From positions 1-56,617 of the forward strand of contig NZ_JPJE01000025.1 in assembly GCF_000765215.1 (NCBI RefSeq): a stretch of DNA of 56,617 nucleotides. Direction: 5' to 3'. Source of the DNA: Eubacterium sp. ER2 (GTDB lineage: Bacteria; Bacillota; Clostridia; Lachnospirales; Lachnospiraceae). The translations under genes and the position numbers were made by a program. The stretch's first letter is position 1. The number at the start of each line of letters is the position of its first letter. A model generated the notes under the pieces. It was not told where the DNA came from, made no database searches, and saw only the letters and a list, made by a program, of their open reading frames with translations. Positions 1,783 to 55,473 of the stretch are shown here, piece by piece.

Positions 1783-1845
1783 CCTTTTCCTCTGAGGGAT
1801 AGAATGGTATAATAACCACATCTTGGAACAATGAGGAGGAAAAGG
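1783..1845 (+). promoter_or_regulatory. uraA promoter inside an SD-sequestering inverted repeat
   Basis: Extended -10 TGG-TATAAT (hexamer 1808-1813) with no good -35. It lies in the loop of a perfect 10-bp inverted repeat, CCTTTTCCTC (1783-1792) and GAGGAAAAGG (1836-1845). The 3' arm is the ribosome site of the permease gene (ATG 1847). Expected transcription start is near 1820, after the 5' arm. Confidence 0.7.
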
Positions 1846-17746: not shown

Positions 17747-17796
17747 ATACGGTACTCCTCATCTTTTAGTTGTTCATTCATAACAATATCCTGTTT

Positions 17797-18043: not shown

Positions 18044-18081
18044 TTATATTAAAAAATAATACTCGAAATGCACAAAAAATA

Positions 18082-18110
18082 TTGACATTACAAAGAGAAA
18101 ATGATAATGT
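18082..18110 (+). promoter_or_regulatory. Sigma-A promoter of the ROK regulator
   Basis: -35 TTGACA (18082-18087), 17-nt spacer, -10 TAATGT (18105-18110). It is 95 nt upstream of the ROK start codon. An AATAAAC half-site lies at 18132-18138, just after the expected start of transcription, where a repressor could act. Confidence 0.75.
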
Positions 18111-18204
18111 TACACTATAAAGAGCTAAATCAATAAACACAAAAATACGATTTGCTGTTGTCTGGTTAATTAAATGAACAAAACTATTCTGAATGGAGGA
18201 CATT

Positions 18205-19437
18205 ATGAATCGGGGAATGAATAGTACAGAGATGCAAAAAGCAAATCGTTCATTAGTTCTTAAAACATTATTAGAAAATAAGAGCATGACGAGATCGGAG
18301 CTGGCTTCCAAGGTGGGATTGCAGAAAGCTACGATTACAAACATTATTAATGATTTTTGCGAAATTGGAATTGTTGAAAATGAAGGCGATTCCGCCGCGG
18401 GAAGGCGCGGAGAACAATTATGCTTGCGGTTAGAAAAAATATATATTATTTCTATCAGAATTAATCGTAAGAATTACCGTATTAAGGTTTATTCACTTCA
18501 AGGGAAAACATTAGATCGAATACAAGTTAAGATCAGTGCTGAAAACAGTATATATGAGATTGTAGCGTCCCTAAAGACAAGTTTGGCAGAGTTGCTAGAA
18601 AAATTTGATAAGAAGAAAATCATAGGGGTGAGTTTAGGACTTCCGGGACCGTACATACGGAAAAGTGGGGATATAAGCAATGACTTGATGCTTGTATCAG
18701 ATTTTGAACAGTTAAGTTTTGTTAATATGCATAAGGAACTTGAAGAAGTGCTTAGAATCCCCGTTTTTTCAGAACATGATGCAAAATTGGCGGCTTATGC
18801 AGAATGGCGGAATGCTAGAGAAAGACAAGCGGAGGAAAATGCCAGTCTCATAGCCTTAGAGTCTATAGGATTTGGAATAGGATGTGGCATCGTAATCAAG
18901 GGAGAGATTGTGCAGGGAAAACTAGGTATTGCCGGAGAAATAGGCCATATGGGAATTAATTATAATGGGAAGAAGCAAATGAATGGCAGCTGGGATAGTA
19001 CTTATGAATACTGTGCAGGGACTGAAAGTGCGGTACGGTATATGAAAGAAAGATTATATGAATTCCCTTATAGTAATTTGACAGAACAGAGCACATATAA
19101 AGAGATTGAAAAAGAGTATGAAAAAAAAGATCCATTGGCTGTATATGCTGTTGAGAAAATGGCATGGATGCTAGGATATGGGATAGCAAATCTGATTTAT
19201 ATTATCAATCCAGATTGTATTATCCTTGGAAAAGATTATCCCAATTCTCCAGAGTTCCTTAGAAAAGTACAGGAATCGGTAGAGCGATTTGTTCATCCAT
19301 CGATTCTTTCTAGTGTATCAATTAGGTGTTCGGTGATGGAAGAGGATACGACATTGCTGGGAGGATATTACCAGGTTGTAGAAAAACTGTTTAAGGAAAA
19401 CAAAATACTTGAATGTATAAAAAGAACAGTTGAATAA
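18205..19437 (+). CDS. ROK-family transcriptional regulator
   Basis: A 410-residue NagC/XylR-like protein. N-terminal winged helix (~12-75: LVLKTLLENKSMTRSELASKVGLQKATITNIINDF) then an ROK ASKHA domain (GVSLGLPGPYI; EHDAKLAAYAEW; IALESIGFGIGCGIVIKGEIVQGKLGIAGEIGHMG). The usual cysteine-rich zinc motif CxCGxxGCxE after the conserved GH is missing: the region reads GHMGINYNGKKQMNGSWDSTYEYCAG with a single Cys. It therefore may fold without structural zinc or be a divergent subgroup. ATG 18205 follows ATGGAGGA. It stands upstream of and in line with the ABC/transketolase genes, which it probably represses until their sugar or sugar phosphate is present. Codon use is clearly AT-richer than in neighbouring regions. 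Confidence 0.88.
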   Translation: MNRGMNSTEMQKANRSLVLKTLLENKSMTRSELASKVGLQKATITNIINDFCEIGIVENEGDSAAGRRGEQLCLRLEKIYIISIRINRKNYRIKVYSLQGKTLDRIQVKISAENSIYEIVASLKTSLAELLEKFDKKKIIGVSLGLPGPYIRKSGDISNDLMLVSDFEQLSFVNMHKELEEVLRIPVFSEHDAKLAAYAEWRNARERQAEENASLIALESIGFGIGCGIVIKGEIVQGKLGIAGEIGHMGINYNGKKQMNGSWDSTYEYCAGTESAVRYMKERLYEFPYSNLTEQSTYKEIEKEYEKKDPLAVYAVEKMAWMLGYGIANLIYIINPDCIILGKDYPNSPEFLRKVQESVERFVHPSILSSVSIRCSVMEEDTTLLGGYYQVVEKLFKENKILECIKRTVE

Positions 19438-19459
19438 CATCAATTAGGATAGCAGACGC

Positions 19460-19539
19460 ATAAACAAAGTTTATTATTAATAAACATGATATTTATGTCC
19501 TGATACGATTTAAATCGGAAAGGACAGAAAATATATAAT
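19460..19539 (+). promoter_or_regulatory. Operator/promoter region of the second ABC operon
   Basis: Contains ATAAAC (19460-19465), the palindrome GTTTATTA-T-TAATAAAC (19469-19485), a second perfect palindrome CGATTTAAATCG (19506-19517) and a -10 TATAAT (19534-19539) with no strong -35. The first palindrome shares its half-site with the one upstream of the ROK gene, suggesting control by that regulator; the second may bind another factor. Confidence 0.5.
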
Positions 19540-19563
19540 TAAAATCAAGGAGGATATGTAACT

Positions 19564-20565
19564 ATGAAAAACAGGGTATGGAAGATCATGCTTGCTACTA
19601 CATTGTCATTTGCAATGACATTAAGTCTTGCGGGCTGTGGTTCTTCAAGCAAAGACAATGACACTGACAATGCGGCTGCTAGCGAAAGCGGAGAAATCGA
19701 TGTAGGGGATCTTACTATTGCGTATGTACCTACTACGATGAACAATCCTTTTTGGACAGCTATGATGGGTGGAATTGAAGATAAAATGCAGGAGCTGGGA
19801 ATGGATGCAGATTCACAGCTTGTGACAGTGGATTCTGATAGTGATCAGGCAACAATGAATAATTATATTTATGATTTGATCAATCAGGATGTTGATGCAA
19901 TTATTATGGCACCAATGGATACTACGGCATGTACGGAAGCACTTCAAGCATGTGCAGATGCCAATATTCCAGTTATAAATGTAGATACGAAAGTAGATAG
20001 GGATGATCTGGTTGTTTCAGTTATAGCATCTGATAACTATGAAGCAGGCGTACAGTGTGCTGAGGATATGATGTCTAAACTGGACGAGGGATCCAAAATT
20101 TATATTTTAAATCAGCCTTCAGGGAGTGCATGCGTTCAGAGAGAGCAGGGCTTCCTCGATACTATTGGAGATTACTTTGAGGTAATTGGTACAACTGACA
20201 CATCTGGAGATACAGCAAGGAGTTTGTCGGTGGCCGAAGATGCCATAACAGGAGATGCGGAATTGGCTGGATTTTTCTGTATTAATGATATGGCAGCACT
20301 GGGGTGTGTTCAGGCATGTGCTGCTGCTGGCCGTGATGATATTTTGATTTATGGGGTGGATGGTAATCCTGACTTTATGGGGTATGTAAAAGATGGATCT
20401 GCGACAGGTTCAGCTGCGCAGCAGCCATCTGTAGTAGGAGCTGACGCAATGCAGGCGGCAATTGATTATCTTAGTGGTGAGGATGTAGAGCACGAGATTG
20501 TGGTACCTGTAGAATTTATTACCGCTGATAATATTGCGGAGTTTGATATTTCGGATTGGCAGTGA
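19564..20565 (+). CDS. Sugar ABC transporter binding lipoprotein, ribose/allose type
   Basis: A 333-residue lipoprotein, with lipobox LAGC, Cys25, and an acidic linker. The mature domain has the type-I periplasmic-binding fold of the RbsB/AlsB group: IAYVPTTMNNPFWTAMMGGIED, LINQDVDAIIMAPMDTTACTEAL, IPVINVDTKVD, and a late GVDGNPDFMGYVKDGSATGSAAQQP where ribose binders contact sugar. It delivers a pentose or similar small sugar to the ATPase/permease downstream. Ribosome site AAGGAGG lies 9 nt before ATG 19564. It is the first gene of the AT-rich uptake operon. Ligand unknown; ribose-like, allose or a branched pentose are all possible. Confidence 0.87.
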   Translation: MKNRVWKIMLATTLSFAMTLSLAGCGSSSKDNDTDNAAASESGEIDVGDLTIAYVPTTMNNPFWTAMMGGIEDKMQELGMDADSQLVTVDSDSDQATMNNYIYDLINQDVDAIIMAPMDTTACTEALQACADANIPVINVDTKVDRDDLVVSVIASDNYEAGVQCAEDMMSKLDEGSKIYILNQPSGSACVQREQGFLDTIGDYFEVIGTTDTSGDTARSLSVAEDAITGDAELAGFFCINDMAALGCVQACAAAGRDDILIYGVDGNPDFMGYVKDGSATGSAAQQPSVVGADAMQAAIDYLSGEDVEHEIVVPVEFITADNIAEFDISDWQ

Positions 20566-20608
20566 TTTTATCAAGCTGAGAAAATCTAAAGTCTATTAGC
20601 CTGTTGAG

Positions 20609-20667
20609 AAGGAGAGCAATCTTTGTTCAAAATAAGAACGTTTTTTTGAAGGGATGGCTCTCCTTTT
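20609..20667 (+). terminator. Stem-loop / attenuator after the second binding-protein gene
   Basis: AAGGAGAGC (20609-20617) pairs with GCTCTCCTT (20657-20665), followed by TT. The 39-nt loop can form a further TTCAAAA/TTTTGAA arm. It sits in the 216-nt gap between binding-protein and ATPase genes, the same place as the element at 9073-9120. Partial termination is inferred. The rest of the gap (20668-20781) holds a short CCTGGC/GCCGGG repeat and nothing else clear. Confidence 0.45.
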
Positions 20668-20781
20668 AGACAGAGCATCAAATAATTCAGTGTGTGAAAA
20701 TAGTTTGCATAAAAGCCTGGCGGTGGCCGGGTCTGGTTTCATGCGTCTTTTTTTAAGATAGACAAAGAAAGGAGTGGCACG

Positions 20782-22290
20782 ATGGTAAAAGAGCTTTTAC
20801 GCATGGAAAAAATAGTGAAGACCTTTCCTGGGGTTAAGGCATTAAATAATGCTGCGATTACAGTACATGCGGGAGAAGTTATGGGTTTTATGGGGGAAAA
20901 TGGTGCCGGAAAATCTACACTCATGAATATATTGGGAGGAGTATTTCCCGCAGATTCAGGAGAAATCTATATTGATGGAGAGAAAGTATCCATACACTCC
21001 GTGAAAGAGTCTCAAAACTTGGGAGTAGCATTTATCCATCAGGAATTAGCGTTGGAGCCATATCTCACGATTGCTGAAAACATTTTTCTTGGTAGAGAGA
21101 AAAAAGGAAGATTAGGATTAGTAAGTAAGGATAAAATGGCAGAGGCCGCTAAACCGTTTCTTGAAAGGGTGGGATTGAATGTTGATCCTAATGAATTTGT
21201 AGGGAAACTTTCTATTGGACAACAGCAAATGGTGGAAATAGCGAAATCTTTTTCGCTAAATGCTAAGATCCTGATATTGGATGAACCGACATCTTCTCTA
21301 TCGGAGAAGGAAGTAGATGTTTTGTTTAAAACCATAAAAGATTTGAAACAGCAGGGACTGGGGATTATTTTTATTACTCACAAAATGGCAGAAGTTTTTC
21401 AGTTATGTGATGCTGTGACTATTATGAGGGATGGAGAATTTATGGGAGAACTTCAGGCTTCGGAATGTTCAGAAAGCAAATTGATTTCTTTAATGGTTGG
21501 ACGTGATCTGGGTAATTATTACACAAGAACATTTAACAAGCCGGGGAAGATCATCCTGGAGGCAAAACATATATGTGCTGGTAATAGGGTGACTGACTGT
21601 AGTTTCTCAGTTCGAAGCGGAGAAATTTTAGGATTTTACGGTCTTGTAGGAGCAGGAAGATCAGAACTCATGAAGGCAGTCATGGGGTTAGATCCTATGA
21701 AATCTGGAGAGGTATATTTGAATGGGGAGCTGGTGAAACATCCCAATCCGCTGTTTATGCAAAAAAAAGGAGTTGCACTTGTTCCCGAGAGCAGAAAGAC
21801 AGAGGGCCTTTTACTGAAACAGTCAATAACATTTAATATTTCGCTCCCTGTTCTTGATCGTTTTATGAAACATTTAAGAGTGGACTTAAAGAAAGAAGCT
21901 GAGATTGTAGATGAAGGGATAAACTCTCTTCAGATTAAGGCACCTTCTCCTAATGTAAATTGTCTTACATTGTCCGGTGGAAATCAACAGAAGGTGCTGC
22001 TTGCTAAATGGCTGGCAACTAATCCTAAAGTCCTGATACTGGATGAACCTACGAGGGGGATTGATGTAGGAGCAAAAGCGGAAATCTATACCATTATTAA
22101 TAATTTGGCAAAAGAAGGCCTTGCGATTATTTTAATATCTTCGGAAATGCCTGAAGTAATGAACATGAGTGACAGAGTAATAGTGATGAGCGAGAGTTAC
22201 ATTACGGGTGAATTAAGTCATGAAGATTTTTCTCAGGAATTAATATTGAAATATGCTATGGGGGTGACGAATAATGAAAAAAATATCTAA
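20782..22290 (+). CDS. Sugar ABC transporter ATP-binding protein, RbsA-like (two NBDs)
   Basis: A 502-residue double ATPase of the CUT2 class. First half: Walker A GENGAGKST (~39-47), LSIGQQQMVEIAKS signature, LILDEPTSSLS. Second half: GLVGAGRSEL, LSGGNQQKVLLAKWL and LILDEPTRGID, with the usual degenerate second P-loop. Powers import of the sugar caught by the lipoprotein upstream. Ribosome site AAAGGAGTGG before ATG 20782. Its end overlaps the permease gene by 17 nt. Codon use stays AT-rich, unlike the paralogous ATPase at 9180, so the two systems have separate histories rather than being a recent local duplication. Confidence 0.92.
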   Translation: MVKELLRMEKIVKTFPGVKALNNAAITVHAGEVMGFMGENGAGKSTLMNILGGVFPADSGEIYIDGEKVSIHSVKESQNLGVAFIHQELALEPYLTIAENIFLGREKKGRLGLVSKDKMAEAAKPFLERVGLNVDPNEFVGKLSIGQQQMVEIAKSFSLNAKILILDEPTSSLSEKEVDVLFKTIKDLKQQGLGIIFITHKMAEVFQLCDAVTIMRDGEFMGELQASECSESKLISLMVGRDLGNYYTRTFNKPGKIILEAKHICAGNRVTDCSFSVRSGEILGFYGLVGAGRSELMKAVMGLDPMKSGEVYLNGELVKHPNPLFMQKKGVALVPESRKTEGLLLKQSITFNISLPVLDRFMKHLRVDLKKEAEIVDEGINSLQIKAPSPNVNCLTLSGGNQQKVLLAKWLATNPKVLILDEPTRGIDVGAKAEIYTIINNLAKEGLAIILISSEMPEVMNMSDRVIVMSESYITGELSHEDFSQELILKYAMGVTNNEKNI

Positions 22291-23254
22291 TAATATAGTA
22301 ATCCGCCCGATCAGTCAATATTTTAAGCAGAATTGGGGGATTTTAATTGCTTTTCTGGCAATGTGTATTTTCTTTTCGATTTTTGGAAACAATTTCCTGA
22401 CACAGACTAATATGGTAAACTTGCTGCGCACATGTGCAGCTAACTGTTATCTTGCCATTGGAGTCCAGATGGCGATTATACTGGCAGGTATTGATTTAAC
22501 AGGTGGAGCGTTAGCAGCCTTGAGTGGAGTCCTTTGTGTTATGACATTTGAAAATTTCGGATTGCCTATCTATATGGGAATTGCCATGGGAATTATTGTG
22601 GGAATTGTAGTTGGCATGATCAATGGACTGGTTATCACGTATACAGGCATCCATCCCTTTGTTGTTACTTTGGCTATGCAGTCTATTTGCCGTGGTGCAG
22701 CATATCTGTTTGCAAACGGATCGCCGGTGACGACAACAAATCAGGATTTCGGGACTCTGGGGACAGGAATGCTTGGACCGATTCCTTATCCTGTTATTTA
22801 TATGGCGATTTTTCTCTTTTTAGATTATATACTCCTCAATAAATTAAGGACAGGGCGTCATATTTATGCTGTTGGAGGTAACGAGATATCTGCGAGATTT
22901 TCAGGCATTAATGTCAAAAAAATAAAAATACTTGTATGGACAATTAGTGGAGCTATAGCAGGATTTTGTGGAGTGGTTATGGCCGCACGTATGTCGTCTG
23001 GACAACCTTCTACAGGAGAAGGGTATGAGACAGATGCTATTGCGGCAGCAGTACTTGGAGGAACATCCTTTTTTGGAGGTACAGGATCTGTAGGTGGCTT
23101 GATTATAGGTGTACTTATAATCGGAGTTATATCTAACGGATTGAATTTGATGAACGTCAATTCATATTGGCAGTATGTTTTTAAAGGAGTCATTATTATT
23201 GCGGCTGTTTATTTTGACATGGTAAAGATGAAAAGGCAAAATGCAGCAGGGTAA
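22274..23254 (+). CDS. Sugar ABC transporter permease, RbsC-like
   Basis: A 326-residue CUT2 permease with a hydrophobic profile of about nine to ten helices. LAGIDLTGGALAALSGVL is the conserved early loop and YETDAIAAAVLGGTSFFGGTGSVGG the late ATPase-contact loop. It is the only permease in this operon, so it should act as a homodimer, unlike the YtfT/YjfF pair further left. It overlaps the ATPase gene by 17 nt and is followed after 31 nt by the transketolase genes, which ties uptake to catabolism in one transcript. Confidence 0.92.
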   Translation: MKKISNNIVIRPISQYFKQNWGILIAFLAMCIFFSIFGNNFLTQTNMVNLLRTCAANCYLAIGVQMAIILAGIDLTGGALAALSGVLCVMTFENFGLPIYMGIAMGIIVGIVVGMINGLVITYTGIHPFVVTLAMQSICRGAAYLFANGSPVTTTNQDFGTLGTGMLGPIPYPVIYMAIFLFLDYILLNKLRTGRHIYAVGGNEISARFSGINVKKIKILVWTISGAIAGFCGVVMAARMSSGQPSTGEGYETDAIAAAVLGGTSFFGGTGSVGGLIIGVLIIGVISNGLNLMNVNSYWQYVFKGVIIIAAVYFDMVKMKRQNAAG

Positions 23255-23285
23255 GAAATAAAAAATATTTGGGAGGCCAGTGAGC

Positions 23286-24125
23286 ATGGACAGTAAAACA
23301 AAAACAAAATTACAGAGACAGGCATATATAATAAGGAAAACTGCGCTTGAAACGATTAAAAATGCTGGTTCAGGCCATATCGGAGGATCATTTTCTATAG
23401 CAGAGATCTTGGCAGTTCTTTATTTTGACAGAATGCGGATAGATCCGGAACATCCAGATAGGAAAGATAGAGATAGACTGGTTTTGTCGAAAGGGCATTG
23501 CTCGCCTGCAATGTATGCGACTCTTTCCTTGCGAGGATTTTTCCCAATAGAGCATTTGAAAACATTTAGGACAATCGATAGTGATCTGTCCGGGCATGTG
23601 GAGATTCATGTGCCGGGAGTGGACATGTCAGCAGGCTCCCTGGGACAGGGATTATCAGTGGCTTTAGGAATGGCAATGTATGGGAAAAATCGTGAAATGG
23701 GGTATTATACATACTGCATAATGGGTGATGGAGAGATTCAAGAAGGGCAAATATGGGAAGCTGCTATGGCAGCAGGATATTTTAAGACAGATCACTTAAT
23801 CGCATTTGTAGATAATAATAAGTTGCAGTTAGATGGAAGTCTGGAAGAAGTTATGTCGCCGTATCCGATCGGAGACAAATTTAAAGCATTCGGATGGAAT
23901 GTGCTGGAAATAGATGGAAATGAAATAGAACAGATACATGACGCAATTGCTCTTGCGCAAGTTTGGAAAGGAAAGCCCACGGTAATTATTGCGGATACTG
24001 TTAAAGGGAAAGGGGTATCTGTTTTTGAAAATCAGGTTCGTTTTCATGGCGGAAAACCAACAGAATCTGAGTTTGAGACAGCTTTTGCTGAATTAGATGC
24101 CAAAATTGCGGAATTGGAGGACTGA
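23286..24125 (+). CDS. Transketolase, N-terminal (TPP-binding) subunit
   Basis: A 279-residue half transketolase carrying the thiamine diphosphate domain. Seen: GSGHIGGSFSIAEILAVLYFD, LSKGHCSPAMYATL, GSLGQGLSVALGMA and the Mg/TPP motif GDGEIQEGQIWEAAMAAGYFKTDHLIAFVDNNK. It should form an alpha2beta2 enzyme with the next gene, moving two-carbon ketol units between sugar phosphates. ATG 23286 is preferred: GGGAGG is 9 nt upstream, whereas GTG 23280 would be only 3 nt from it. Being in a sugar-uptake operon suggests a dedicated role; split transketolases of this kind include apulose-4-phosphate transketolase of the apiose route, but no apulose kinase or apiose isomerase is visible here. Confidence 0.92.
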   Translation: MDSKTKTKLQRQAYIIRKTALETIKNAGSGHIGGSFSIAEILAVLYFDRMRIDPEHPDRKDRDRLVLSKGHCSPAMYATLSLRGFFPIEHLKTFRTIDSDLSGHVEIHVPGVDMSAGSLGQGLSVALGMAMYGKNREMGYYTYCIMGDGEIQEGQIWEAAMAAGYFKTDHLIAFVDNNKLQLDGSLEEVMSPYPIGDKFKAFGWNVLEIDGNEIEQIHDAIALAQVWKGKPTVIIADTVKGKGVSVFENQVRFHGGKPTESEFETAFAELDAKIAELED

Positions 24126-24130
24126 TAGAA

Positions 24131-25075
24131 ATGGGTGAAAATATATCTACAAGAGTTGCGTATGGGCGGTCTCTGGAAGAGTTTGGGGGAAGACAGGATA
24201 TTTATGTATTTGATGCAGATTTAAAGAGCTGTACAATGACACAGTATTTTGCGGATAGATATCCGGAACGTTTTTTTAACATTGGTATTGCAGAGGCGAA
24301 TATGGTGGATATTGCTGCTGGTTTTGCTACGTGCGGAGCTACTGCATTAGTGCATACTTTTGCTATGTTTGCGGCAGGACGTGTATATGATCAGGTTCGT
24401 AATAGTGTTGCCTATCCAGGGCTAAATGTAAAAATAATTGGTAGCCACGCAGGACTAACAGTAGGAGAAGATGGAGCGACTCATCAATGTATAGAGGATA
24501 TCAGTTTGATGAGAACTATTCCAGGAATGACGGTTATTGTGCCATGTGATGCAAATGAAACACGTATGGCTACAAGGGCAATACTAGATATGAAGGGGCC
24601 TTGCTACCTTAGAACAGGACGTTGTGCCTTAGAGTGTGTGACAGATACATTCGAGAACTATCATTTTGAAGTGGGAAAGGGAATTCAGTTAGTGGATGGC
24701 GCGGATGTTTCGATTATTGCATGCGGACTTATGGTACAGGAGGCTTTAAAAGCAGAAAGAATTTTGCGAAAAGAGGGAATTAGCGCACGCATTATTGATA
24801 TGCATACAATAAAGCCCATTGATAAAGAAATTATCCAAAAGGCTGCAAAAGAAACGGGTGCGATTGTGACGGCTGAGGAGCACAATATAATAGGAGGACT
24901 TGGAAGTGCAGTGTCGGAAGTTGTAGTATCTGATGAAAACGTGCCGGTAGAAATGGTAGGGGTAAAGGATGTGTTTGGACATTCGGCTTCTCCTCAGATC
25001 CTTCTCCAGAAATATGGATTAACTCCGGAGGATATCGCATCTGCTGCAAGACGTGTTGTACGAAGAAAAAAATAA
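24131..25075 (+). CDS. Transketolase, C-terminal (pyrimidine-binding) subunit
   Basis: A 314-residue partner of the preceding gene: the pyrimidine-binding domain (DADLKSCTMTQYFADRYPERFFNIGIAEANMVDIAAGFA, with the conserved catalytic Glu in GIAEAN) plus the transketolase C-terminal domain (~190-310). SHAGLTVGEDGATHQCIEDISLMR is the second conserved block. Starts 6 nt after the first subunit ends, with TTGGAGG upstream, so the two halves are made together. Last gene of the AT-rich operon; a 13-bp terminator follows directly. It does not share the usual housekeeping transketolase fusion, so it is probably a pathway-specific enzyme. Confidence 0.92.
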   Translation: MGENISTRVAYGRSLEEFGGRQDIYVFDADLKSCTMTQYFADRYPERFFNIGIAEANMVDIAAGFATCGATALVHTFAMFAAGRVYDQVRNSVAYPGLNVKIIGSHAGLTVGEDGATHQCIEDISLMRTIPGMTVIVPCDANETRMATRAILDMKGPCYLRTGRCALECVTDTFENYHFEVGKGIQLVDGADVSIIACGLMVQEALKAERILRKEGISARIIDMHTIKPIDKEIIQKAAKETGAIVTAEEHNIIGGLGSAVSEVVVSDENVPVEMVGVKDVFGHSASPQILLQKYGLTPEDIASAARRVVRRKK

Positions 25076-25093
25076 CATAAAAGCATTCTAAAG

Positions 25094-25136
25094 CGGCTGC
25101 AAAATATATTAGATTGTATTTTGCAGCCGTTCTATT
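25094..25136 (+). terminator. Intrinsic terminator after the transketolase operon
   Basis: Perfect 13-bp stem CGGCTGCAAAATA (25094-25106) with its complement (25117-25129), 10-nt loop, then TTCTATTT. It marks the right edge of the AT-rich block. Confidence 0.88.
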
Positions 25137-25170
25137 TATCAAAAGTAGGCGAGACAATGTGGAATAGACA

Positions 25171-25199
25171 TTGCCTTTCAAAAATGAAAAGATTATAAT
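25171..25199 (+). promoter_or_regulatory. Sigma-A promoter of the RpiB-family gene
   Basis: -35 TTGCCT (25171-25176), 17-nt spacer, -10 TATAAT (25194-25199), 43 nt before ATG 25242. Confidence 0.8.
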
Positions 25200-25241
25200 A
25201 TATCCAGAAATGAATTTTGAGTAAAGAAGGAGACCAGATGT

Positions 25242-42569: not shown

Positions 42570-43247
42570 ATGAAGGAACCGAATTTTGAAGTCAGTATGA
42601 ATGAGTACCTGCCGCTGCGGGACGTGGTATTCAACACACTGCGGCAGGCCATTTTGCGGGGGGAGCTCAAGCCCGGGGAAAGGCTCATGGAGATCCAGCT
42701 CGCCAACAAGCTGGGGGTCAGCCGGACCCCCATCCGCGAGGCCATCCGGAAGCTGGAGCTGGAGGGACTTGTGCTGATGATCCCCAGGAAGGGGGCTGAG
42801 GTGGCCGAGATCACAGAGAAGAGCCTGCGGGATGTGCTGGAGGTGCGCCGGGCTCTGGAGGAGCTGGCAGTGGAGCTGGTGTGCGAGAAGATCACAGACG
42901 AGCAGATCCAGGATCTGAAGGATGCCGCGGAGGAGTTTAAGGAGTCCTTGAAGGACGGGGATATCACCCGCATTGCAGAGGCAGACGTGAAGTTTCACGA
43001 CGTCATCTACATGGCTACAGACAATCAGAAGCTGATCCAGCTCCTGAATAACCTGAGAGAGCAGATGTACCGGTACAGAGTGGAGTATCTGAAGCGGTCG
43101 GATTTCCATCAGCAGCTCATCGACGAGCACGAGGAGATCATCGAGACCATTGAGAGCGGCCAGAAGGACCGGGCGGTGCAGGTGGTGTGCCAGCACGTGG
43201 ACAATCAGGTGGAGGCCGTGATGGATACCATCCGGACGAAAAAATAG
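42570..43247 (+). CDS. GntR/FadR-family transcriptional regulator
   Basis: A 225-residue regulator. N-terminal GntR winged helix (~12-75: LRDVVFNTLRQAILRGELKPGERLMEIQLANKLGVSRTPIREAIRKLELEGLVLMIPRKGAEV) and an all-helical FCD domain (~85-215) with the Asp/His metal or ligand residues (DVKFHDVIYMATDN, EHEEIIETIES). Such proteins respond to small carboxylic acids or fatty acyl compounds. It begins immediately after the ispE stop codon, using AGGAGGAAA inside ispE. No obvious operator palindrome was found locally; target and ligand unknown. Confidence 0.92.
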   Translation: MKEPNFEVSMNEYLPLRDVVFNTLRQAILRGELKPGERLMEIQLANKLGVSRTPIREAIRKLELEGLVLMIPRKGAEVAEITEKSLRDVLEVRRALEELAVELVCEKITDEQIQDLKDAAEEFKESLKDGDITRIAEADVKFHDVIYMATDNQKLIQLLNNLREQMYRYRVEYLKRSDFHQQLIDEHEEIIETIESGQKDRAVQVVCQHVDNQVEAVMDTIRTKK

Positions 43248-43256: not shown

Positions 43257-43316
43257 GCATAAAGACCAAAAAAACTGTGAAGACTCCTGATAGATCCCCG
43301 AGGGGACAGTCAGGAG
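43257..43316 (+). promoter_or_regulatory. Sigma-F-like spoIIR promoter overlapping an SD-sequestering repeat
   Basis: -35 GCATA (43257-43261), 15-nt spacer, -10 GTGAAGACT (43277-43285), close to the forespore sigma-F/G consensus GYATA / GGnnAnAnT. CTCCTGA (43284-43290) pairs with TCAGGAG (43310-43316), the spoIIR ribosome site; TCCCC/GGGGA nests between. Expected start ~43292, just after the 5' arm. Confidence 0.65.
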
Positions 43317-43325: not shown

Positions 43326-43979
43326 ATGAGAAACAGGAACCGGAATAGAAGAAAGAAGGAGGCCATCTGTCTTGGCATTGCCCTCATATGCGGGGCTCTG
43401 CTGACAGGGCTCCTTCTTGTGCAGAGGGGGATGCTGGTGGAGGCCAGGGCCCGGAGAGCGGGACAGGAGCTGAGCCGGGAGGTGCTCCGCTTCCACGTGC
43501 TGGCTGACAGCGACAGCCCGGAGGATCAGCAGAGGAAGCTGGAGGTGAAGGAGGCGCTCCTTGCTTACATGGAAGAGGCCATGCCCCTGGATGCGGACCT
43601 GGAGGAGACCTGCTCCTGGGTCCGGGAGAACCTGGACAGCCTGGAGCAGACCGCGGAGGAGAGGCTCCGGGAGGAGGGGTGCTCTGACCCTGTCCGGGCT
43701 GAGCTTGTCCGGGATTATTTCCCGGAGAAGACCTACGGGGACGTTACCTTTCCGGCTGGGGAGTACACGGCGCTTCGGATCCTCATCGGAGCGGGACAGG
43801 GGCACAACTGGTGGTGCTGCCTCTACCCGTCTCTCTGCTTTACGGATGCGGTGACAGCCCATGTGCCCGAGGAGGAGAAGGAGGAGCTGGGCCGCGTCCT
43901 GGGGGAAGACGAGTACGACATGATCACGGCGTACTCAGATTTCAGGATCAGATGGTTCTTCTTCGGAGACCGGGACTAG
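43326..43979 (+). CDS. spoIIR: Stage II sporulation protein R
   Basis: A 217-residue secreted signalling protein. Basic N-terminus plus one membrane/signal segment (~12-35), then the conserved core: LRFHVLADSDSPEDQQRKLEVKEALLAYM (~57-85), YTALRILIGAGQGHNWWCCLYPSLCF (~140-165). In B. subtilis the forespore makes SpoIIR under sigma-F and it triggers SpoIIGA to process pro-sigma-E in the mother cell. CAGGAGG lies 9 nt before ATG 43326. The upstream sigma-F-like promoter agrees with that. The ribosome site is covered by an inverted repeat in read-through transcripts from ispE-gntR, which would prevent untimely signalling. Confidence 0.94.
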   Translation: MRNRNRNRRKKEAICLGIALICGALLTGLLLVQRGMLVEARARRAGQELSREVLRFHVLADSDSPEDQQRKLEVKEALLAYMEEAMPLDADLEETCSWVRENLDSLEQTAEERLREEGCSDPVRAELVRDYFPEKTYGDVTFPAGEYTALRILIGAGQGHNWWCCLYPSLCFTDAVTAHVPEEEKEELGRVLGEDEYDMITAYSDFRIRWFFFGDRD

Positions 43980-46860: not shown

Positions 46861-47094
46861 ATGAAAGTACAGAATATTACCGATATCGATAAGTTTTTTA
46901 AGGTCGTTGACGACTGCAAGGGAAGAGTGGAGCTGGTGACAGGTGAGGGAGACAGACTGAATCTGAAGTCCAAGCTGTCTCAGTACGTGTCCATGGCCAA
47001 CATATTCTCCAACGGCGAGATCCCGGAGCTGGAGATCATCGCATACGAGAAAGAGGATATTGACAGACTGGTAAGCTTTATGATCAACGGGTAG
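46861..47094 (+). CDS. Conserved small protein, unknown function
   Basis: A 77-residue soluble, acidic protein: MKVQNITDIDKFFKVVDDCKG then VELVTGEGDRLNLKSKLSQYVSMANIFSNGEIPELEIIAYEKEDIDRLVSFMING. I do not recognise a domain with known activity; I recall similar short proteins in Lachnospiraceae near dnaE. No membrane segment, cysteine or catalytic motif stands out. AAGGAAC lies 9 nt before the ATG. It has its own promoter, and the dnaE hairpin/terminator follows 20 nt after its stop. Confidence 0.75.
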   Translation: MKVQNITDIDKFFKVVDDCKGRVELVTGEGDRLNLKSKLSQYVSMANIFSNGEIPELEIIAYEKEDIDRLVSFMING

Positions 47095-47109
47095 TGAAAC
47101 ACAGAATTC

Positions 47110-47173
47110 TTGCGCCTCCCTTTCAAACGTAGTACAATATTTCCAAGTACCACGTCTGAAAGGGAGGCTTTTT
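47110..47173 (+). promoter_or_regulatory. dnaE promoter embedded in a terminator-like, SD-hiding hairpin
   Basis: Inverted repeat GCCTCCCTTTCA (47114-47125) and TGAAAGGGAGGC (47157-47168), 12 perfect pairs, continued by ACGT/ACGT and GTAC/GTAC with single mismatches; loop 47136-47146; TTTTTA follows. The 3' arm contains the dnaE ribosome site. Within it lie -35 TTGCGC (47110-47115) and, 17 nt on, -10 TACAAT (47133-47138). Expected start ~47145, after the 5' arm. Confidence 0.75.
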
Positions 47174-47175
47174 AT

Positions 47176-50100
47176 ATGAGTTTTGCGCATCTGCACGTCC
47201 ACACAGAGTACAGTCTGCTGGACGGATCCAATAAAATAAAGGAATGTATCTCCCGGGTGAAGGAGCTGGGCATGGACAGCGTGGCCATCACGGACCACGG
47301 CGTCATGTACGGCGTGATCGACTTTTACAAGGCGGCCAAGGCGGCTGGAATCAAGCCGGTGCTTGGGTGCGAGGTGTATGTGGCCCCCGGCTCCCGCTTT
47401 GACAAGGAGGCCAGAGGCAACAGCGAGAGCAGGTACTACCACCTTGTGCTGCTGGCGGAAAATGACACCGGCTACCATAACCTGATGAAGCTGGTCTCCC
47501 GGGGATTTACGGAGGGCTACTACTACAAGCCCAGGGTGGACATGGAGCTCCTTCAGGAGTTTCACGAGGGGATTATCGCCCTCAGCGCCTGCCTGGCGGG
47601 GGAAGTGGCCAGAAATATCGTGCAGGGACTCTATGAGGAGGCCAAGGAGGCGGCCCTGCGGTATGAGAAAATCTTTGGAAAGGGCAATTTTTTCCTGGAG
47701 CTCCAGGATCACGGCATGTCCCAGCAGCAGATGGTGAACCAGGCTCTTGTGCGCATGAGCCGGGAGACGGGGATCCAGCTGGTGGCTACCAACGACGTCC
47801 ATTACACCTATGCGGACGACGTGAAGCCCCACGATATCCTCCTCTGCCTCCAGACAGGAAAAAAGCTGGCGGACGAGGACCGGATGCGCTACGAGGGCGG
47901 CCAGTACTACATCAAGTCCGAGGAGGAGATGAGGGAACTCTTCCCCTACGCCCTGGAGGCTCTGGAGAACACCCAGAAGATCGCGGACCGGTGCAATGTG
48001 GAGATCGAGTTCGGCGTGACCAAGCTGCCCAAGTACGATGTGCCGGAGGGATACACCTCCTGGGAATACTTAAATGAACTGTGCCACAAAGGGCTGGAGG
48101 AGAGGTACAGCCCTGTCACAGAGGAGCTGAAGGAGCGGCTGAAATACGAGCTGTCCGTCATCCACGACATGGGCTATGTGGACTATTTCCTCATTGTGTG
48201 GGACTTTATCAAATACGCCAGGGACAACGACATTATGGTGGGACCCGGCCGTGGGTCCGCTGCCGGCAGCATTGTGGCCTACTGCCTGGGCATCACCAGC
48301 ATCGATCCCATCCGGTACCAGCTCCTCTTTGAGAGGTTCCTCAACCCGGAACGTGTGTCCATGCCGGATATTGACGTGGACTTCTGCTTTGAGAGAAGGC
48401 AGGAGGTCATCGACTATGTGGTGCGCAAGTACGGCCCTGACCGGGTGGTGCAGATCGTCACCTTCGGTACTCTGGCGGCCCGGGGCGTCCTTAGGGATGT
48501 GGGCAGGGTCATGGATCTGCCCTACGCCTTTGTGGACACCATTGCGAAAATGGTTCCCACAGAGCTGAACATCACCCTGGACAAGGCCCTTGCCATGAAT
48601 CCGGAGCTGAAGAAGCTGTACGAGGAGGACAGCCAGGTGCGGGAGCTTGTGGACATGTCCAAGAGGCTGGAGGGACTGCCAAGGCACACCTCCATGCACG
48701 CGGCCGGCGTGGTCATCAGCCAGAAGGCGGTGGACGAGTACGTGCCCCTGTCTCTTGGCTCTGACGGCTCCGTGACCACCCAGTTTACCATGACCACCCT
48801 GGAGGAGCTGGGGCTTCTGAAAATGGATTTCCTGGGCCTTCGGACCCTGACGGTGATCCAGAACGCGGTGGAGCTGGCCCAGAAGAGCACAGGAAAAGAG
48901 ATTGATATACACAGCATCGACTACAATGACAAGGAGGTGCTGGACTCCATCGGCACGGGAAAGACAGACGGCGTGTTCCAGCTTGAGAGCACCGGGATGA
49001 AGAGCTTCATGAAGGAGCTGAAGCCCCAGAGTCTGGAGGATATCATTGCCGGGATTTCCCTGTACCGGCCCGGCCCCATGGACTTTATCCCCCAGTATAT
49101 CAGGGGAAAAAACAACCCGGAGCTGATCACCTACGACTGCCCCCAGCTGGAGCCGATCCTGGCACCCACCTACGGGTGCATTGTCTACCAGGAGCAGGTT
49201 ATGCAGATCGTCCGGGATCTGGCCGGCTACACCCTGGGACGAAGCGACCTTCTGCGCCGCGCCATGTCCAAGAAAAAGGGAGATGTGATGCAGAAGGAGC
49301 GGCAGAACTTTGTCTATGGCAACCCGGAGGAGGGAGTGCCCGGCTGTGTGAACAATGGCATAGATGAGAAGACGGCCAACAAGATTTACGACGAGATGAT
49401 TGATTTCGCAAAATACGCCTTCAACAAGTCCCACGCGGCGGCCTACGCGGTGGTCTCCTACCAGACCGCCTGGCTGAAGTACTACTACCCGGTGGAATTT
49501 ATGGCGGCTCTCATGACATCCGTGATTGAAAATCCATCCAAGGTGGCAGAATATATTTACAGCTGCCGCCAGATGGGCATTGACATCCTGCCCCCTGACA
49601 TCAACAAGGGCGAGGGCAATTTCTCTGTGGACGGAGGCAATATCCGGTATGGCCTGGCAGCTATCAAGAGCATCGGGAAGCCGGTGATCCACTCCATCAT
49701 CGAGGAGAGGGAACAAAACGGCCTCTTCCGCAGCCTGAAGGATTTCATCGAGAGAATGTCTGGAAAGGACGTGAACAGGCGCACCATCGAGAACTTCATC
49801 AAGGCGGGGGCCTTTGACGGGCTGGGAGGCACAAGGCGGCAGTTCATGGCCATCTACGTGCAGATCCTGGACCAGGTGAACCAGGAGAGAAAATACTCCA
49901 TGACCGGTCAGATGTCCCTTTTTGACCTGGTGGATGATGAGCAGAAGAAGGAGTTTGACATTCCCCTCCCGGACGTGGGCGAGTATGACAAGGAGACAAA
50001 GCTGGCCTTTGAGAAGGAGGTCAGTGGCGTGTATCTGACCGGCCATCCCCTGGAGGACTACGAGGAGAAGTGGAAGAAAAATATTTCCAGAACCACCCTG

Positions 50101-50652
50101 GACTTTCAGATCGATGACTCTACCGGCCGCTCCAAGGTCCGGGACGGCGCCAGGGAGACAGTGGGCGGCATGATCACGGCAAAGACCATCAAGCACACGA
50201 AAAACAATAAGATGATGGCCTTCCTAACTCTGGAGGATCTGGCGGGCACGGTGGAGATCGTCGTATTTCCCCGGGATTACGAGAAATACCAGCGGATGCT
50301 GGGGCAGGATGACAAGGTGTTTATCCGGGGCAGAGTGTCCGAGGAGGACGACGCCCCCAGCAAGCTCATCTGCGAGAGCGTGGTGCCTTTTGAGCAGACG
50401 AAGAAGGAGCTGTGGATCCAGTATAAGGACAAAGCCTCTTACATGGAGGACGAAGAGCATCTCTTTGACATGCTCCGGGCCTCCGACGGGGACGACTCGG
50501 TGGTTATTTACTGCCGGGCGGAGAAGGCGGTGAAGCGTCTTCCGGCCGGAAAAAATATTTATATTGAGCCTGGAATACTGAGCAGATTGACGAATTATTT
50601 CGGAGAAAGTTGTGTAAAAGTTGTAGAAAAACCCATTGAAAGCATAAGGTAG
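47176..50652 (+). CDS. dnaE: DNA polymerase III subunit alpha (DnaE)
   Basis: An 1158-residue replicative polymerase of the DnaE type. N-terminal PHP domain (FAHLHVHTEYSLLDGSNKI, ITDHGVMYGV), polymerase core with GPGRGSAAGSIVAYCLGIT and the catalytic Asp pair in PDIDVDFCFERR, then LYRPGPMDFIPQYIRGK, TVEIVVFPRDYEKY of the OB-fold region (~1010-1060) and a C-terminal tau-binding part. Length and order are those of a DnaE1/DnaE3-like protein, not the PolC form. ATG 47176 is chosen by AGGGAGG and by the MSFAHLHVHTEYS start; an in-frame ATG at 47110 is upstream of the promoter. Followed by pfkA with its own promoter. Confidence 0.97.
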   Translation: MSFAHLHVHTEYSLLDGSNKIKECISRVKELGMDSVAITDHGVMYGVIDFYKAAKAAGIKPVLGCEVYVAPGSRFDKEARGNSESRYYHLVLLAENDTGYHNLMKLVSRGFTEGYYYKPRVDMELLQEFHEGIIALSACLAGEVARNIVQGLYEEAKEAALRYEKIFGKGNFFLELQDHGMSQQQMVNQALVRMSRETGIQLVATNDVHYTYADDVKPHDILLCLQTGKKLADEDRMRYEGGQYYIKSEEEMRELFPYALEALENTQKIADRCNVEIEFGVTKLPKYDVPEGYTSWEYLNELCHKGLEERYSPVTEELKERLKYELSVIHDMGYVDYFLIVWDFIKYARDNDIMVGPGRGSAAGSIVAYCLGITSIDPIRYQLLFERFLNPERVSMPDIDVDFCFERRQEVIDYVVRKYGPDRVVQIVTFGTLAARGVLRDVGRVMDLPYAFVDTIAKMVPTELNITLDKALAMNPELKKLYEEDSQVRELVDMSKRLEGLPRHTSMHAAGVVISQKAVDEYVPLSLGSDGSVTTQFTMTTLEELGLLKMDFLGLRTLTVIQNAVELAQKSTGKEIDIHSIDYNDKEVLDSIGTGKTDGVFQLESTGMKSFMKELKPQSLEDIIAGISLYRPGPMDFIPQYIRGKNNPELITYDCPQLEPILAPTYGCIVYQEQVMQIVRDLAGYTLGRSDLLRRAMSKKKGDVMQKERQNFVYGNPEEGVPGCVNNGIDEKTANKIYDEMIDFAKYAFNKSHAAAYAVVSYQTAWLKYYYPVEFMAALMTSVIENPSKVAEYIYSCRQMGIDILPPDINKGEGNFSVDGGNIRYGLAAIKSIGKPVIHSIIEEREQNGLFRSLKDFIERMSGKDVNRRTIENFIKAGAFDGLGGTRRQFMAIYVQILDQVNQERKYSMTGQMSLFDLVDDEQKKEFDIPLPDVGEYDKETKLAFEKEVSGVYLTGHPLEDYEEKWKKNISRTTLDFQIDDSTGRSKVRDGARETVGGMITAKTIKHTKNNKMMAFLTLEDLAGTVEIVVFPRDYEKYQRMLGQDDKVFIRGRVSEEDDAPSKLICESVVPFEQTKKELWIQYKDKASYMEDEEHLFDMLRASDGDDSVVIYCRAEKAVKRLPAGKNIYIEPGILSRLTNYFGESCVKVVEKPIESIR

Positions 50653-52692: not shown

Positions 52693-52747
52693 AACCTCCT
52701 CACTATGTAATAATCGCACAGTATATTTTAACATTGTTTAGGGGGTT
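52693..52747 (-). promoter_or_regulatory. Promoter with SD-complementary arm, gene 52244-52687
   Basis: Minus strand: AACCCCCT (52740-52747) and AGGAGGTT (52693-52700), 7 of 8 pairs, with -10 TATACT (52720-52725) in the loop; no good -35. The 3' arm is the ribosome site. Expected start ~52713. Confidence 0.45.
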
Positions 52748-52913: not shown

Positions 52914-53969
52914 ATGAAAAGAAAAGCAGCGCTTTTACTGGCCGGCATGCTGGTATGCTCCGCCGCGCTGGTAGGATGCTCCGGCAGCAACCAGGCGTCA
53001 AATGACTATGTGACTGTCGGCGGCTACAAAGGGATAGAAGTGGACAAGGTGGCAGATCAGGAGGAAGTGACAGACGAGGATATTGACAACTATATAGCCT
53101 CTGTTCAGCAGCAGAATGCCCAGGAGGTGACAGACCGCCCTGTCCAGGAGGGAGACATTGCCAACATTGACTTTGTGGGCAAGATGGACGGACAGGAGTT
53201 CGACGGCGGCTCCGGTCAGGGCTATGATCTGACCATCGGCTCCGGCCAGTTTATCGATGGATTTGAGGACAGCATTATCGGGCACAATGTGGGAGAGACC
53301 TTTGACTGGAATGGTCAGTTTCCGGATCCCTATACTAGAAACCCGGATTTCTCCGGCAAGCCGGTGACATTTACCATCACAGTCAACTCTATCAGCACCC
53401 TTCCCGAGGTAAACGATGACTTTGTGAAGACCGTGTCTGATGAGTCAACGACAGTGGACGAGTACAGAGAGGAAGTCAAGAAAACTCTGGAGGAGTCCGC
53501 AAAGGACAACTACGACTACAGCCTGCAGGCAGAGGCCTGGGACGCGGTTCTTGAGAAGGCAGAGGTAGAGAAGTATCCGGAGGATGAGGTGAACGAGATC
53601 AAGGATCAGCTCATTCAGCAGTACAAGGACGCGGCAGAGTCCTACGGCATGACCTACGAGGACTTTATCTCAAGCCAGATGAACACGGATGTGGCCAGCT
53701 TTGAAAAGCAGGCGGAGGAGGCAGCTCAGCAGTCTATCAAGCAGAAGTATGTCGCCGAGGCCATCGCGGATAAGGAGAAGCTGACGCCTACAGATGAGGA
53801 GTACGAGGAGCATTTCCAGGAGCTGGCAGAGTCCTACGGCTTTGAGGATGTGGACGCGCTGAAGCAGGCGGCCTCAGAGGATGACCTGAAGGACATGGTG
53901 CTCCAGCAGATCGTGCAGGAGTGGCTGGCGGACAACTGCATACAGGTGGTCAATGACTCGGCGGAGTAG
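52914..53969 (+). CDS. Trigger-factor-like FKBP peptidyl-prolyl isomerase lipoprotein
   Basis: A 351-residue lipoprotein: signal MKRKAALLLAGMLVCSAALVGC with lipidated Cys22. Residues ~75-165 form an FKBP domain (VQEGDIANIDFVGKMDGQEFDGGSGQGYDLTIGSGQFIDGFEDSIIGHNVGETFDW), inserted as in trigger factor, and the rest (~170-345) is the helical trigger-factor C-terminal domain (DDFVKTVSDESTTVDEYREEVKKTLEE ... MTYEDFISSQMNT). The ribosome-binding N-terminal domain of real trigger factor is missing and replaced by a lipid anchor. It should thus act outside the membrane as a folding catalyst/chaperone for secreted proteins, a PrsA-like role. AAGAGGTG before ATG 52914; terminator downstream. Confidence 0.85.
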   Translation: MKRKAALLLAGMLVCSAALVGCSGSNQASNDYVTVGGYKGIEVDKVADQEEVTDEDIDNYIASVQQQNAQEVTDRPVQEGDIANIDFVGKMDGQEFDGGSGQGYDLTIGSGQFIDGFEDSIIGHNVGETFDWNGQFPDPYTRNPDFSGKPVTFTITVNSISTLPEVNDDFVKTVSDESTTVDEYREEVKKTLEESAKDNYDYSLQAEAWDAVLEKAEVEKYPEDEVNEIKDQLIQQYKDAAESYGMTYEDFISSQMNTDVASFEKQAEEAAQQSIKQKYVAEAIADKEKLTPTDEEYEEHFQELAESYGFEDVDALKQAASEDDLKDMVLQQIVQEWLADNCIQVVNDSAE

Positions 53970-54008: not shown

Positions 54009-54035
54009 AGGCAGGGCGTGGCTCTGCCTTTTTTA
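54009..54035 (+). terminator. Intrinsic terminator after the lipoprotein gene
   Basis: AGGCAG (54009-54014) pairs with CTGCCT (54024-54029), followed by a T-run to 54034. Confidence 0.75.
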
Positions 54036-54181: not shown

Positions 54182-54231
54182 AATAACCCTCCTGTTTGCT
54201 TGCTATAATGAGAGCAGACAGGAGGGTTATT
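54182..54231 (+). promoter_or_regulatory. Promoter in the loop of a 20-bp hairpin covering the SD
   Basis: AATAACCCTCCTGT (54182-54195) and ACAGGAGGGTTATT (54218-54231) pair perfectly over 14 bp; six more inner pairs (two G-U) bring the stem to 20. The 10-nt loop is GCTATAATGA, containing the extended -10 TGC-TATAAT (54204-54209). The 3' arm runs from the ribosome site to the base before ATG 54232. Confidence 0.8.
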
Positions 54232-55383
54232 ATGCACAAAGACAGCAGATTTATGAGAGAGCACCCGGTTGCCCTGATCGCACTGATCATAACCGTCGTG
54301 TGCCTGGCAGCAGGACTTTCCACAGGTGTCTCGGGGTTCCTGGGAGGAAAAGAGGGAATTTCCGGTTACATTTCCACCTGGGCCTGGAGGCTGGGAGTAT
54401 CCTTTGCGGCTCTGTCCGCAGCGGCGTACATTGTTGTTCGGGGGATGAACGCAAACAAGCAGAAGGGACGGAGCATAGTCCGCACCGCCCTCATGGCCCT
54501 GGGAGTGGCGGTGTGCCTGCTTCTGGTGATCTGGCTGCTGCAGGCACCTATACGAGACATTCCCTATCTGATGGCGCCGGAAGGCGCCTATGTGCGCCAG
54601 CTCAGCTATGATGTGAGCACTGGTGAAGACACAGATCATTACTATGTGGAAGGGATCAGCGCAGAGGGAAAAGAGGTGCGTTTTCAGGTAAACAGATCCA
54701 CGTACAGGCAAGGAAAAGAGCTGCTGGAGGAAAATCCGGGAGTGATCATGAAAATTGACTATCTTCCCCACACAGATGTGGTGATGGAACTGGATTACAA
54801 GGAAAATCTTGACCGAGCGGCCTATCAGGACAGGATCAGCCCGGAGCTCTCGGACAACCCTGAAAGCTTTCAGATCCAGATCGGACAGGATGTGTTTACA
54901 GTGCCCGTGGCAGTCAGCAGGCTGCGGGAGAAGGGCTGGAATTTTGTGAGTCAGGAGGAGGCAAATACAATGGTCGCATCTATTTTCGCCCCCTGGGAGA
55001 GCCGCTTTGAAGACCATCCCCTGATCCACCTTGTCAACGACAGCGGACAGACCATCACAGTATTTGTCCGCAATACGGCGGACCACGAGGCCCCTGCGCA
55101 GGACTGCATGGCAGATGTGATTTCCCTGAGCAATGACAATCTGGAATACGAGGGGATCGATGTGTTCCTTCCCGGAGAGCTGATCCTGTCCTGGTCCGGG
55201 AAAGAACAGATGACAGAGCAATACGGGAGACCGGATGAGATAAATGAGCTGGGAGATTATGAGACAGAATATACCTATCACCTTTTGGGAGAAGAGTACG
55301 GGCACAGGCTGCGGCTGGGCTACGGGGCAAATGATCTTCTGAACTCTATCTGGATAGAAAATTGGATAGAGGCGGATGATTGA
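54232..55383 (+). CDS. Unknown membrane protein with large outer domain
   Basis: A 383-residue protein, not recognised. Three membrane helices are visible: ~13-31 (VALIALIITVVCLAAGLST), ~49-68 (WRLGVSFAALSAAAYIVVRG) and ~81-102 (TALMALGVAVCLLLVIWLLQ). The remaining ~280 residues are soluble, with no cysteine pair or catalytic motif seen; a beta-rich part GAYVRQLSYDVSTGEDTDHYYVEGISAEGKEVRFQVN follows the third helix, and QMTEQYGRPDEINELGDYETEYTYHLLGEEYGHRLRLGYGANDLLNSIWIEN near the end looks like an SmpA/BamE-type or lipoprotein-like repeat. Start ATG 54232 is set by GGAGGG; an in-frame ATG at 54196 is inside the promoter hairpin. Orientation and gap do not tie it to neighbours. Confidence 0.78.
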   Translation: MHKDSRFMREHPVALIALIITVVCLAAGLSTGVSGFLGGKEGISGYISTWAWRLGVSFAALSAAAYIVVRGMNANKQKGRSIVRTALMALGVAVCLLLVIWLLQAPIRDIPYLMAPEGAYVRQLSYDVSTGEDTDHYYVEGISAEGKEVRFQVNRSTYRQGKELLEENPGVIMKIDYLPHTDVVMELDYKENLDRAAYQDRISPELSDNPESFQIQIGQDVFTVPVAVSRLREKGWNFVSQEEANTMVASIFAPWESRFEDHPLIHLVNDSGQTITVFVRNTADHEAPAQDCMADVISLSNDNLEYEGIDVFLPGELILSWSGKEQMTEQYGRPDEINELGDYETEYTYHLLGEEYGHRLRLGYGANDLLNSIWIENWIEADD

Positions 55384-55431: not shown

Positions 55432-55473
55432 AACCGTCCGATATAATTTTTACAAAAACGAGAGGACGGTTAG
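55432..55473 (+). promoter_or_regulatory. Recombinase-gene promoter in an inverted repeat by the SD
   Basis: AACCGTCC (55432-55439) pairs with GGACGGTT (55464-55471); CT/AG extends it past a one-base bulge. The loop holds -10 TATAAT (55442-55447); no good -35. The ribosome site GAGAGGA (55460-55466) overlaps the 3' arm; ATG 55478. Expected start ~55454. Confidence 0.6.

Follow-up and report, generated by a model that had tools for sequence, protein, structure and literature searches.

Why should a bacterial promoter lie inside a hairpin that can hide the ribosome site of its own gene? The question is raised by the gene at 54232 in a 56,617-nt stretch of Eubacterium sp. ER2 DNA (the window; contig C23 of a 3.27-Mb genome, G000), where the -10 region, which reads TGC-TATAAT at 54201-54209 and has no good -35, is bracketed by an inverted repeat whose 3' arm carries the Shine-Dalgarno sequence (SD; Table 1). 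The original prediction held that six unrelated genes in the window share this layout and that it serves as a general scheme insulating genes from transcription read in from upstream. The repeat at 54182-54231 is real: its 19-nt arms are 95% complementary across a 12-nt loop, and when both arms are present the RNA folds with an energy of -34 kcal/mol (z -7.7), 0 of 200 dinucleotide shuffles folding as well. A consensus scan found no + strand promoter for the gene, and the leader predicted for its own message (54215-54245) has a minimum free energy of 0, i.e. is unfolded.

Table 1. Coordinates of the features discussed, in positions of the window.
Feature	Position	Strand	Basis
Permease (1847) repeat, arms 1783-1792 and 1836-1845; marginal	1783..1845	+	Fold, repeat search, relatives
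GntR/FCD regulator gene, co-directional, 78 nt 5' of spoIIR	42570..43247	+	Gene calls, profile search
spoIIR sigF/sigG-like promoter motif: GCATA (43257-43261), AAGACT (43280-43285)	43257..43285	+	Motif drawn from spoIIR loci
spoIIR hairpin 5' arm; core CTCCTGA 43284-43290	43284..43297	+	Repeat search, stem test
spoIIR hairpin 3' arm, extending into SD AGGAGG	43303..43316	+	Repeat search, stem test
spoIIR, stage II sporulation protein R	43326..43979	+	Gene calls, profile search
dnaE promoter-like boxes TTGCGC (47110-47115), TACAAT (47133-47138); spacer 17 nt	47110..47138	+	Read from sequence
dnaE hairpin 5' arm, filling the promoter spacer	47114..47135	+	Fold, repeat search
dnaE hairpin 3' arm with SD GGGAGG (47162-47167)	47147..47168	+	Fold, repeat search
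T-run TTTTT 3' of the dnaE 3' arm; possible terminator U-tract	47169..47173	+	Sequence
dnaE, DNA polymerase III alpha subunit	47176..50652	+	Gene calls, profile search
52687 gene, proposed arms; unsupported	52693..52747	-	Sequence, fold, repeat search, relatives
Intrinsic-terminator-like site 3' of tig (tig, 52914-53969)	54009..54030	+	Terminator scan
54232 hairpin 5' arm	54182..54200	+	Sequence, repeat search; arm lies immediately 5' of the gene's extended -10
Extended -10 box TGCTATAAT, between the arms, after the 5' arm and before the SD	54201..54209	+	Read from sequence
54232 hairpin 3' arm with SD AGGAGG (54220-54225); last base adjoins ATG	54213..54231	+	Sequence, fold, repeat search
54232 gene, 383 aa, family not assigned (no Pfam or NCBIfam match)	54232..55383	+	Gene calls, profile search
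Integrase (55478) repeat, arms 55432-55439 and 55464-55471; marginal	55432..55471	+	Fold, repeat search

A stem whose 3' arm covers the SD is also present at two of the other named genes. Upstream of dnaE, 22-nt arms with 91% complementarity and an 11-nt loop fold with a z of -7.4 (0 of 200 dinucleotide shuffles as good), around a promoter, TTGCGC-17-TACAAT, that falls below the threshold of our promoter scan. The stem over the spoIIR SD is shorter than either of these; its core arms (43284-43290 and 43310-43316) are 7 nt each and 19 nt apart, with an inward extension that includes mismatches, and it gave a z of -5.0 with 0 of 200 dinucleotide shuffles as good and a p of 0.058 under stricter 12-nt block shuffles. 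A sigma-70 promoter is absent here, and a sigF/sigG-like sequence, GCATA-N18-AAGACT, is present. In the window 57% of the extended 5' arm, including the SD-complementary core CTCCTGA, lies upstream of the predicted start, and across the window and three close relatives this share is only 47-57%.

The remaining three genes fit the proposed shared layout less well, so that it stands for 54232, dnaE, and spoIIR, is marginal at 1847 and 55478, and fails at 52687. The permease repeat (1847) has 10-nt, 100% complementary arms separated by a 43-nt loop, but folds with a z of only -1.4 (16 of 200 shuffles as good), and its stem p ranged from 0.007 to 0.07 across runs. Among relatives, this stem recurs in G005 (p 0.02) and not in G009 (p 0.76), while G006 and G010 carry different stems upstream of the gene (p 0.18 and 0.03). 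The integrase repeat (55478), with 8-nt arms and a 24-nt loop, gave a z of -2.4 (3 of 200 shuffles as good). At the 52687 gene the repeat search lists no pair over the SD, the proposed 8-nt pair (52740-52747 with 52693-52700) has one mismatch, the fold is unexceptional (z -0.3, 80 of 200 shuffles as good), and complementarity of the arms, compared by eye, is not kept in relatives. Elsewhere in the window, at 17750-25240, a codon model trained on the genome calls no genes despite long ORFs, possibly reflecting atypical composition or foreign DNA.

At 54232, dnaE, and spoIIR, we consider it likely that a promoter set within an inverted repeat locks the ribosome site against read-through. Transcription from the gene's own promoter would start 3' of the 5' arm (at the window's spoIIR, 3' of the SD-complementary core), so that the full stem could not form and the ribosome site would stay open. 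Polymerase arriving from an upstream gene would copy both arms, and a stem would form over the SD, leaving the read-through message poorly translated. With the own message open and the read-through message closed, production of the protein would be tied to the gene's own promoter. At dnaE and most distant spoIIR loci a T-run lies just 3' of the stem, and there the hairpin may also terminate the incoming message. Start sites, read-through, and the block on translation are inferred, whereas the arms, boxes, recurrence, and covariation are observed. In B. subtilis, SpoIIR serves as the forespore signal turning on mother-cell gene expression, so a leak from a neighboring gene could be costly; the lock would silence this signaling gene despite the GntR-type gene transcribed toward it across 78 nt.

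Conservation of the two strongest hairpins in the window is limited. The 54232 protein has one close match among 40 relatives, in G005, and four weak ones (E 4e-5 to 9e-4); the G005 homologue (G005:C3:50274-51150; L049, L044) is split over two overlapping frames, and the hairpin stem is mostly gone. Among the upstream regions of 30 dnaE loci, both arms occur in two genomes of the genus, G000 and G003, between which one pair is changed on both sides (T-A to C-G) and another is lost. In G009 the promoter is kept, as is most of the 5' arm, and the 3' side is different, and in the remaining loci the repeat was not seen by eye or fold. One relative also shows several additional incomplete matches to dnaE, some of them interrupted by stop codons, on two contigs (G015:C43 and C44).

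The strongest result lies outside the 54182-54231 stretch: spoIIR carries a recurrent, co-varying stem that covers the SD. A collection scan found at least 80 spoIIR loci, of which L194 and L212 were dropped as having no usable start, and the 79 analyzed comprise 78 of these matches together with the window. Among the matches listed, the SD-covering stem was significant at p≤0.05 in 42 of 79 loci and at p≤0.01 in 29, and was not significant in 37. Neighboring genes of the same loci reached these levels in 11 of 168 and 5 of 168 cases (13 of 170 and 7 of 170 before two entries that were spoIIR itself were removed). When the loci are binned by the identity of their protein to that of the window, p≤0.05 was reached by 5/5 at 60% or above, 6/11 at 50-60%, 1/7 at 45-50%, and 30/56 below 45% (again among the matches listed); the loci are not independent, some being near-identical, and 12-nt block shuffles weaken several stems besides that of the window. 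Within the genus 8 of 10 loci gave p≤0.05, the exceptions being L179 and L182, and the leaders place an anti-SD arm near the -10 box in sequences that differ yet pair; in G007, for instance, GTCTACGCTTCTT pairs opposite AAGGAGCGTGGAC.

Covariation was counted on sequence anchors because a MAFFT alignment (A2) split the spoIIR arms. The anchors were CTCC on the 5' side and GGAG on the 3' side, only pairs outside this core were counted, and among the matches listed 44 of 79 loci had both anchors (the rest being dropped), leaving 39 after removal of near-duplicates. In these 39, arms from the same genome formed 6.26 pairs on average vs 3.44 when arms were re-paired between loci, and none of 10,000 permutations was as high. 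The effect is found both in the distant group (27 of the listed loci; 7.11 vs 3.99 pairs, 0/10,000 permutations as high) and in the Lachnospiraceae-like group (12 of the listed loci; 4.33 vs 2.89 pairs, 19/10,000). When the register was slipped by +1, +2, or +3, the effect was absent (3541, 4924, and 4393 of 5000 permutations at least as high as own-genome pairing); slips of -3 and -2 gave 1355 and 462 of 5000, and a slip of -1 left a weak effect with a small gap (3.54 vs 2.70; 4 of 5000). Among the distant loci listed, three or four types of Watson-Crick pair are seen at five of the eight positions next to the core toward the loop. Judged by this covariation, the spoIIR pairing appears to have been kept by selection. 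The idea that arms are conserved or co-vary in related genomes is thus upheld for spoIIR but not for 52687, and the 54232 and dnaE hairpins are barely kept.

The position of the spoIIR promoter relative to the stem is consistent with a lock. Of the 79 loci, 57 carry the motif G[ACT]ATA-N17-19-[AC]A..[CA]T, vs 1.3% of shuffles (among the matches listed), a frequency that is descriptive since this forespore-type motif was drawn from the same loci. For C. difficile, the part of a published study that we consulted discusses spoIIR with sigF and possible sigG input and calls the two consensus sequences promiscuous (PMC7438776). The 5' arm lies mostly between -35 and -10 in distant loci and near -10/+1 in Lachnospiraceae-like loci. 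Among the 39 listed loci with both a significant stem and the motif, 34 have the 5' arm upstream of the predicted start over 75% or more of its length, and 39/39 have part or all of it there. Mean predicted SD openness in these listed loci is 0.15 in the read-through message vs 0.54 in the own message, the latter being higher in 38 of 39; spoIIR loci without a significant stem also open in their own message (0.31 to 0.60, 15 of 18 among the matches listed), a gain that reflects own messages being shorter. Orientation of the gene 5' of spoIIR, called by an ORF rule, divides the significant stems into 30/59 co-directional and 11/19 divergent cases (among the matches listed), which at face value speaks against a read-through role at spoIIR, but the rule looks unreliable, calling L175 and L176 divergent though the 226-aa gene is co-directional in the window, L177, and L178, and we draw no conclusion from these counts.

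Could the hairpins instead belong to the upstream gene as its intrinsic terminators, which in a tight gap overlap the next promoter and ribosome site and mask the SD as a by-product? At dnaE the stem is followed directly by TTTTT, and a terminator scan of 46900-47300 shows no other terminator-like site (0 hits; its loop limit of 3-8 also misses the dnaE hairpin itself). Among the matches listed, 27 of the 30 distant spoIIR loci with a significant stem likewise have a T-run of at least 4 between SD and start, and in these a single hairpin may act as lock and terminator at once. The same feature is found in 0 of 12 significant Lachnospiraceae-like loci, window included (among the matches listed), and termination therefore does not explain these. 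Ending the tig message is not the obvious role of the 54182 hairpin either, as a terminator-like site lies 3' of tig some 150 nt before it, and the loops of many stems are long for terminators. Taken as a full account, termination alone seems to us unlikely.

The same applies, somewhat more strongly, to the suggestion that the recurrent geometry is mostly chance acting on abundant intergenic inverted repeats picked by eye, so that only single cases matter; this reading bears directly on the predicted general insulation scheme. For a genome-wide test, the best SD-covering stem was scored for 1068 usable genes out of 1197 called with a simple caller in 81 stretches (1.435 Mb, window included), against segment-wise dinucleotide shuffles with promoter boxes held fixed. 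Among the first 548 genes scored, 54232 and dnaE had the two strongest stems. Co-directional genes with a gap of 60 nt or more (n=363) had 18 stems at E≤-18 vs 4.06 expected (16 vs 5.2 under 12-nt block shuffles), and straddling stems numbered 10 vs 1.32 expected in the 165 co-directional genes with promoter-like sequence. The predicted enrichment over dinucleotide shuffles thus exists in such gaps, but at the same threshold it was not seen for close genes (n=466; 3 vs 5.62 expected) and was slight for divergent genes (n=221; 5 vs 3.20), which at a weaker threshold of ≤-14 had 26 straddling stems vs 11.9 expected.

These stems are not particular to the SD. With a sliding 6-nt target in co-directional gaps (E≤-18), we counted 20 vs 4.7 at -58, 13 vs 3.3 at -22, and 16 vs 4.3 at -14, the excess dropping to 5 vs 2.4 at the start codon, and block shuffles agree with this result. 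Strong hairpins, which a terminator reading would also accommodate, are frequent all along co-directional gaps, with the SD not depleted and a fading at the start codon. An E. coli MG1655 sample (250 kb, 40 such genes) gave 3 vs 0.7 expected; G006, a genome of the same genus, gave 3 vs 1.1 (87 genes in 400 kb). Since a similar excess occurs at other intergenic positions and in E. coli, we dropped SD-specific genome-wide enrichment, and a special genome-wide scheme in this lineage is not shown. In the divergent genes of G000, long-loop (26-60 nt) complementarity to the SD was also counted, at 29 vs 15.0 at ≤-13 (191 genes, block shuffles), and position -22 showed the same moderate excess (19 vs 9.2), even though these genes have no co-directional neighbor upstream. 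This genome-wide picture, together with the three of six loci that are marginal or absent and the poor conservation of the 54232 and dnaE hairpins, favors chance. Chance would not be expected to yield the recurrence of the spoIIR stem relative to neighboring genes or its covariation, and 54182 and dnaE stems were equalled by no shuffle; as an overall explanation we find it improbable. The read-through lock therefore fits the anatomy of 54232, dnaE, and spoIIR, with recurrence and covariation at the last, and is weak as a genome-wide claim.

Least plausible is that the repeat works as an RNA switch in the own message, or in DNA as an operator bound by a regulator: start sites here are predicted, inverted repeats around promoters are typical of operators, and the consulted part of a study of B. 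subtilis sigG describes a 5-bp ribosome-site hairpin in the own message too (PMC5942855), but at spoIIR, unlike at an operator, the arms vary in sequence and the loops in length (4 to 37 nt among the significant loci listed) while pairing is kept, the 5' arm lies wholly downstream of the predicted start in 0 of 39 loci among the matches listed, and an Rfam search of the window returned no family at gathering score.

Further cases resembling the lock occur within the genus. A rubrerythrin-like gene (L036:12472-13086, - strand; relatives L292-L300), assigned at 199.1 bits against a cut-off of 200, has a sigF/sigG-like promoter and pairs the -10 region of that promoter with the SD, at p≤0.05 in 5 of 9 genus loci; G002 carries a double change, CATACT/AGTATG to CACACT/AGTGTG (p 0.11). 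A broader rule is conceivable, and we offer it tentatively: Clostridia may place forespore promoters within hairpins that hide the ribosome site and are opened only by a start made with the right sigma factor. This lock would come in two registers relative to the promoter (arm within the -35/-10 spacer, or at -10/+1), and in one group it would be merged with a terminator whose U-tract also forms the SD-to-AUG spacer; spoIIR would be the widespread example and the rubrerythrin-like gene a second within the genus. Two other candidates were rejected. At spo0A most of the stem is made up of the -10 box and the SD region, and clear covariation is absent; the forespore-motif genes of this genome as a class reached p≤0.05 in 5/12 cases vs 69/572, with a motif that is post hoc and some matches that look spurious. 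Separately, upstream of position 1501 in L166, a sigG-like gene (G000:C32) lying 3' of a sigE-like gene and scoring below the family cut-off is preceded by a terminator-like T-run stretch that can pair with the SD region in a fold made without shuffle control.

A lock that is readable from sequence and recurrent in Clostridia offers a testable way in which compact genomes could separate neighboring messages, and suggests that translation of a message can hinge on its start point. We found no report of a read-through lock at spoIIR in the literature searched, which took in only a minority of subscription journals. In IS10 and IS50, the read-through message folds and hides the transposase start; those are mobile-element genes, whereas our finding concerns host genes. 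The IS10/IS50 layout is echoed at L020:1551-3110 and L004:1819-3378 (both - strand), two transposase genes whose products have rve and Mu-type C-terminal domains and whose -10 box lies inside the 5' arm of an SD-covering hairpin. For the late genes of phage T4 and for homing endonucleases, I-TevI among them, the published account describes a late promoter so placed that late messages miss the sequence required for the hairpin over the ribosome site, and earlier read-through messages that go untranslated (PMC2988022); unlike these phage genes under temporal control, the genes here are chromosomal and bacterial. For B. subtilis sigG, the consulted part of the paper proposes a large hairpin that blocks read-through translation and is said not to form in the own transcript (PMC5942855), and sigG, like spoIIR, is a sporulation gene with a forespore promoter. 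Compared with the sigG case as that part presents it, spoIIR is a different gene, its arms recur and co-vary across many Clostridia, and a T-run follows the 3' arm in the distant group. The principle is already known from sigG and T4, and the recurrence and covariation at spoIIR are new evidence.
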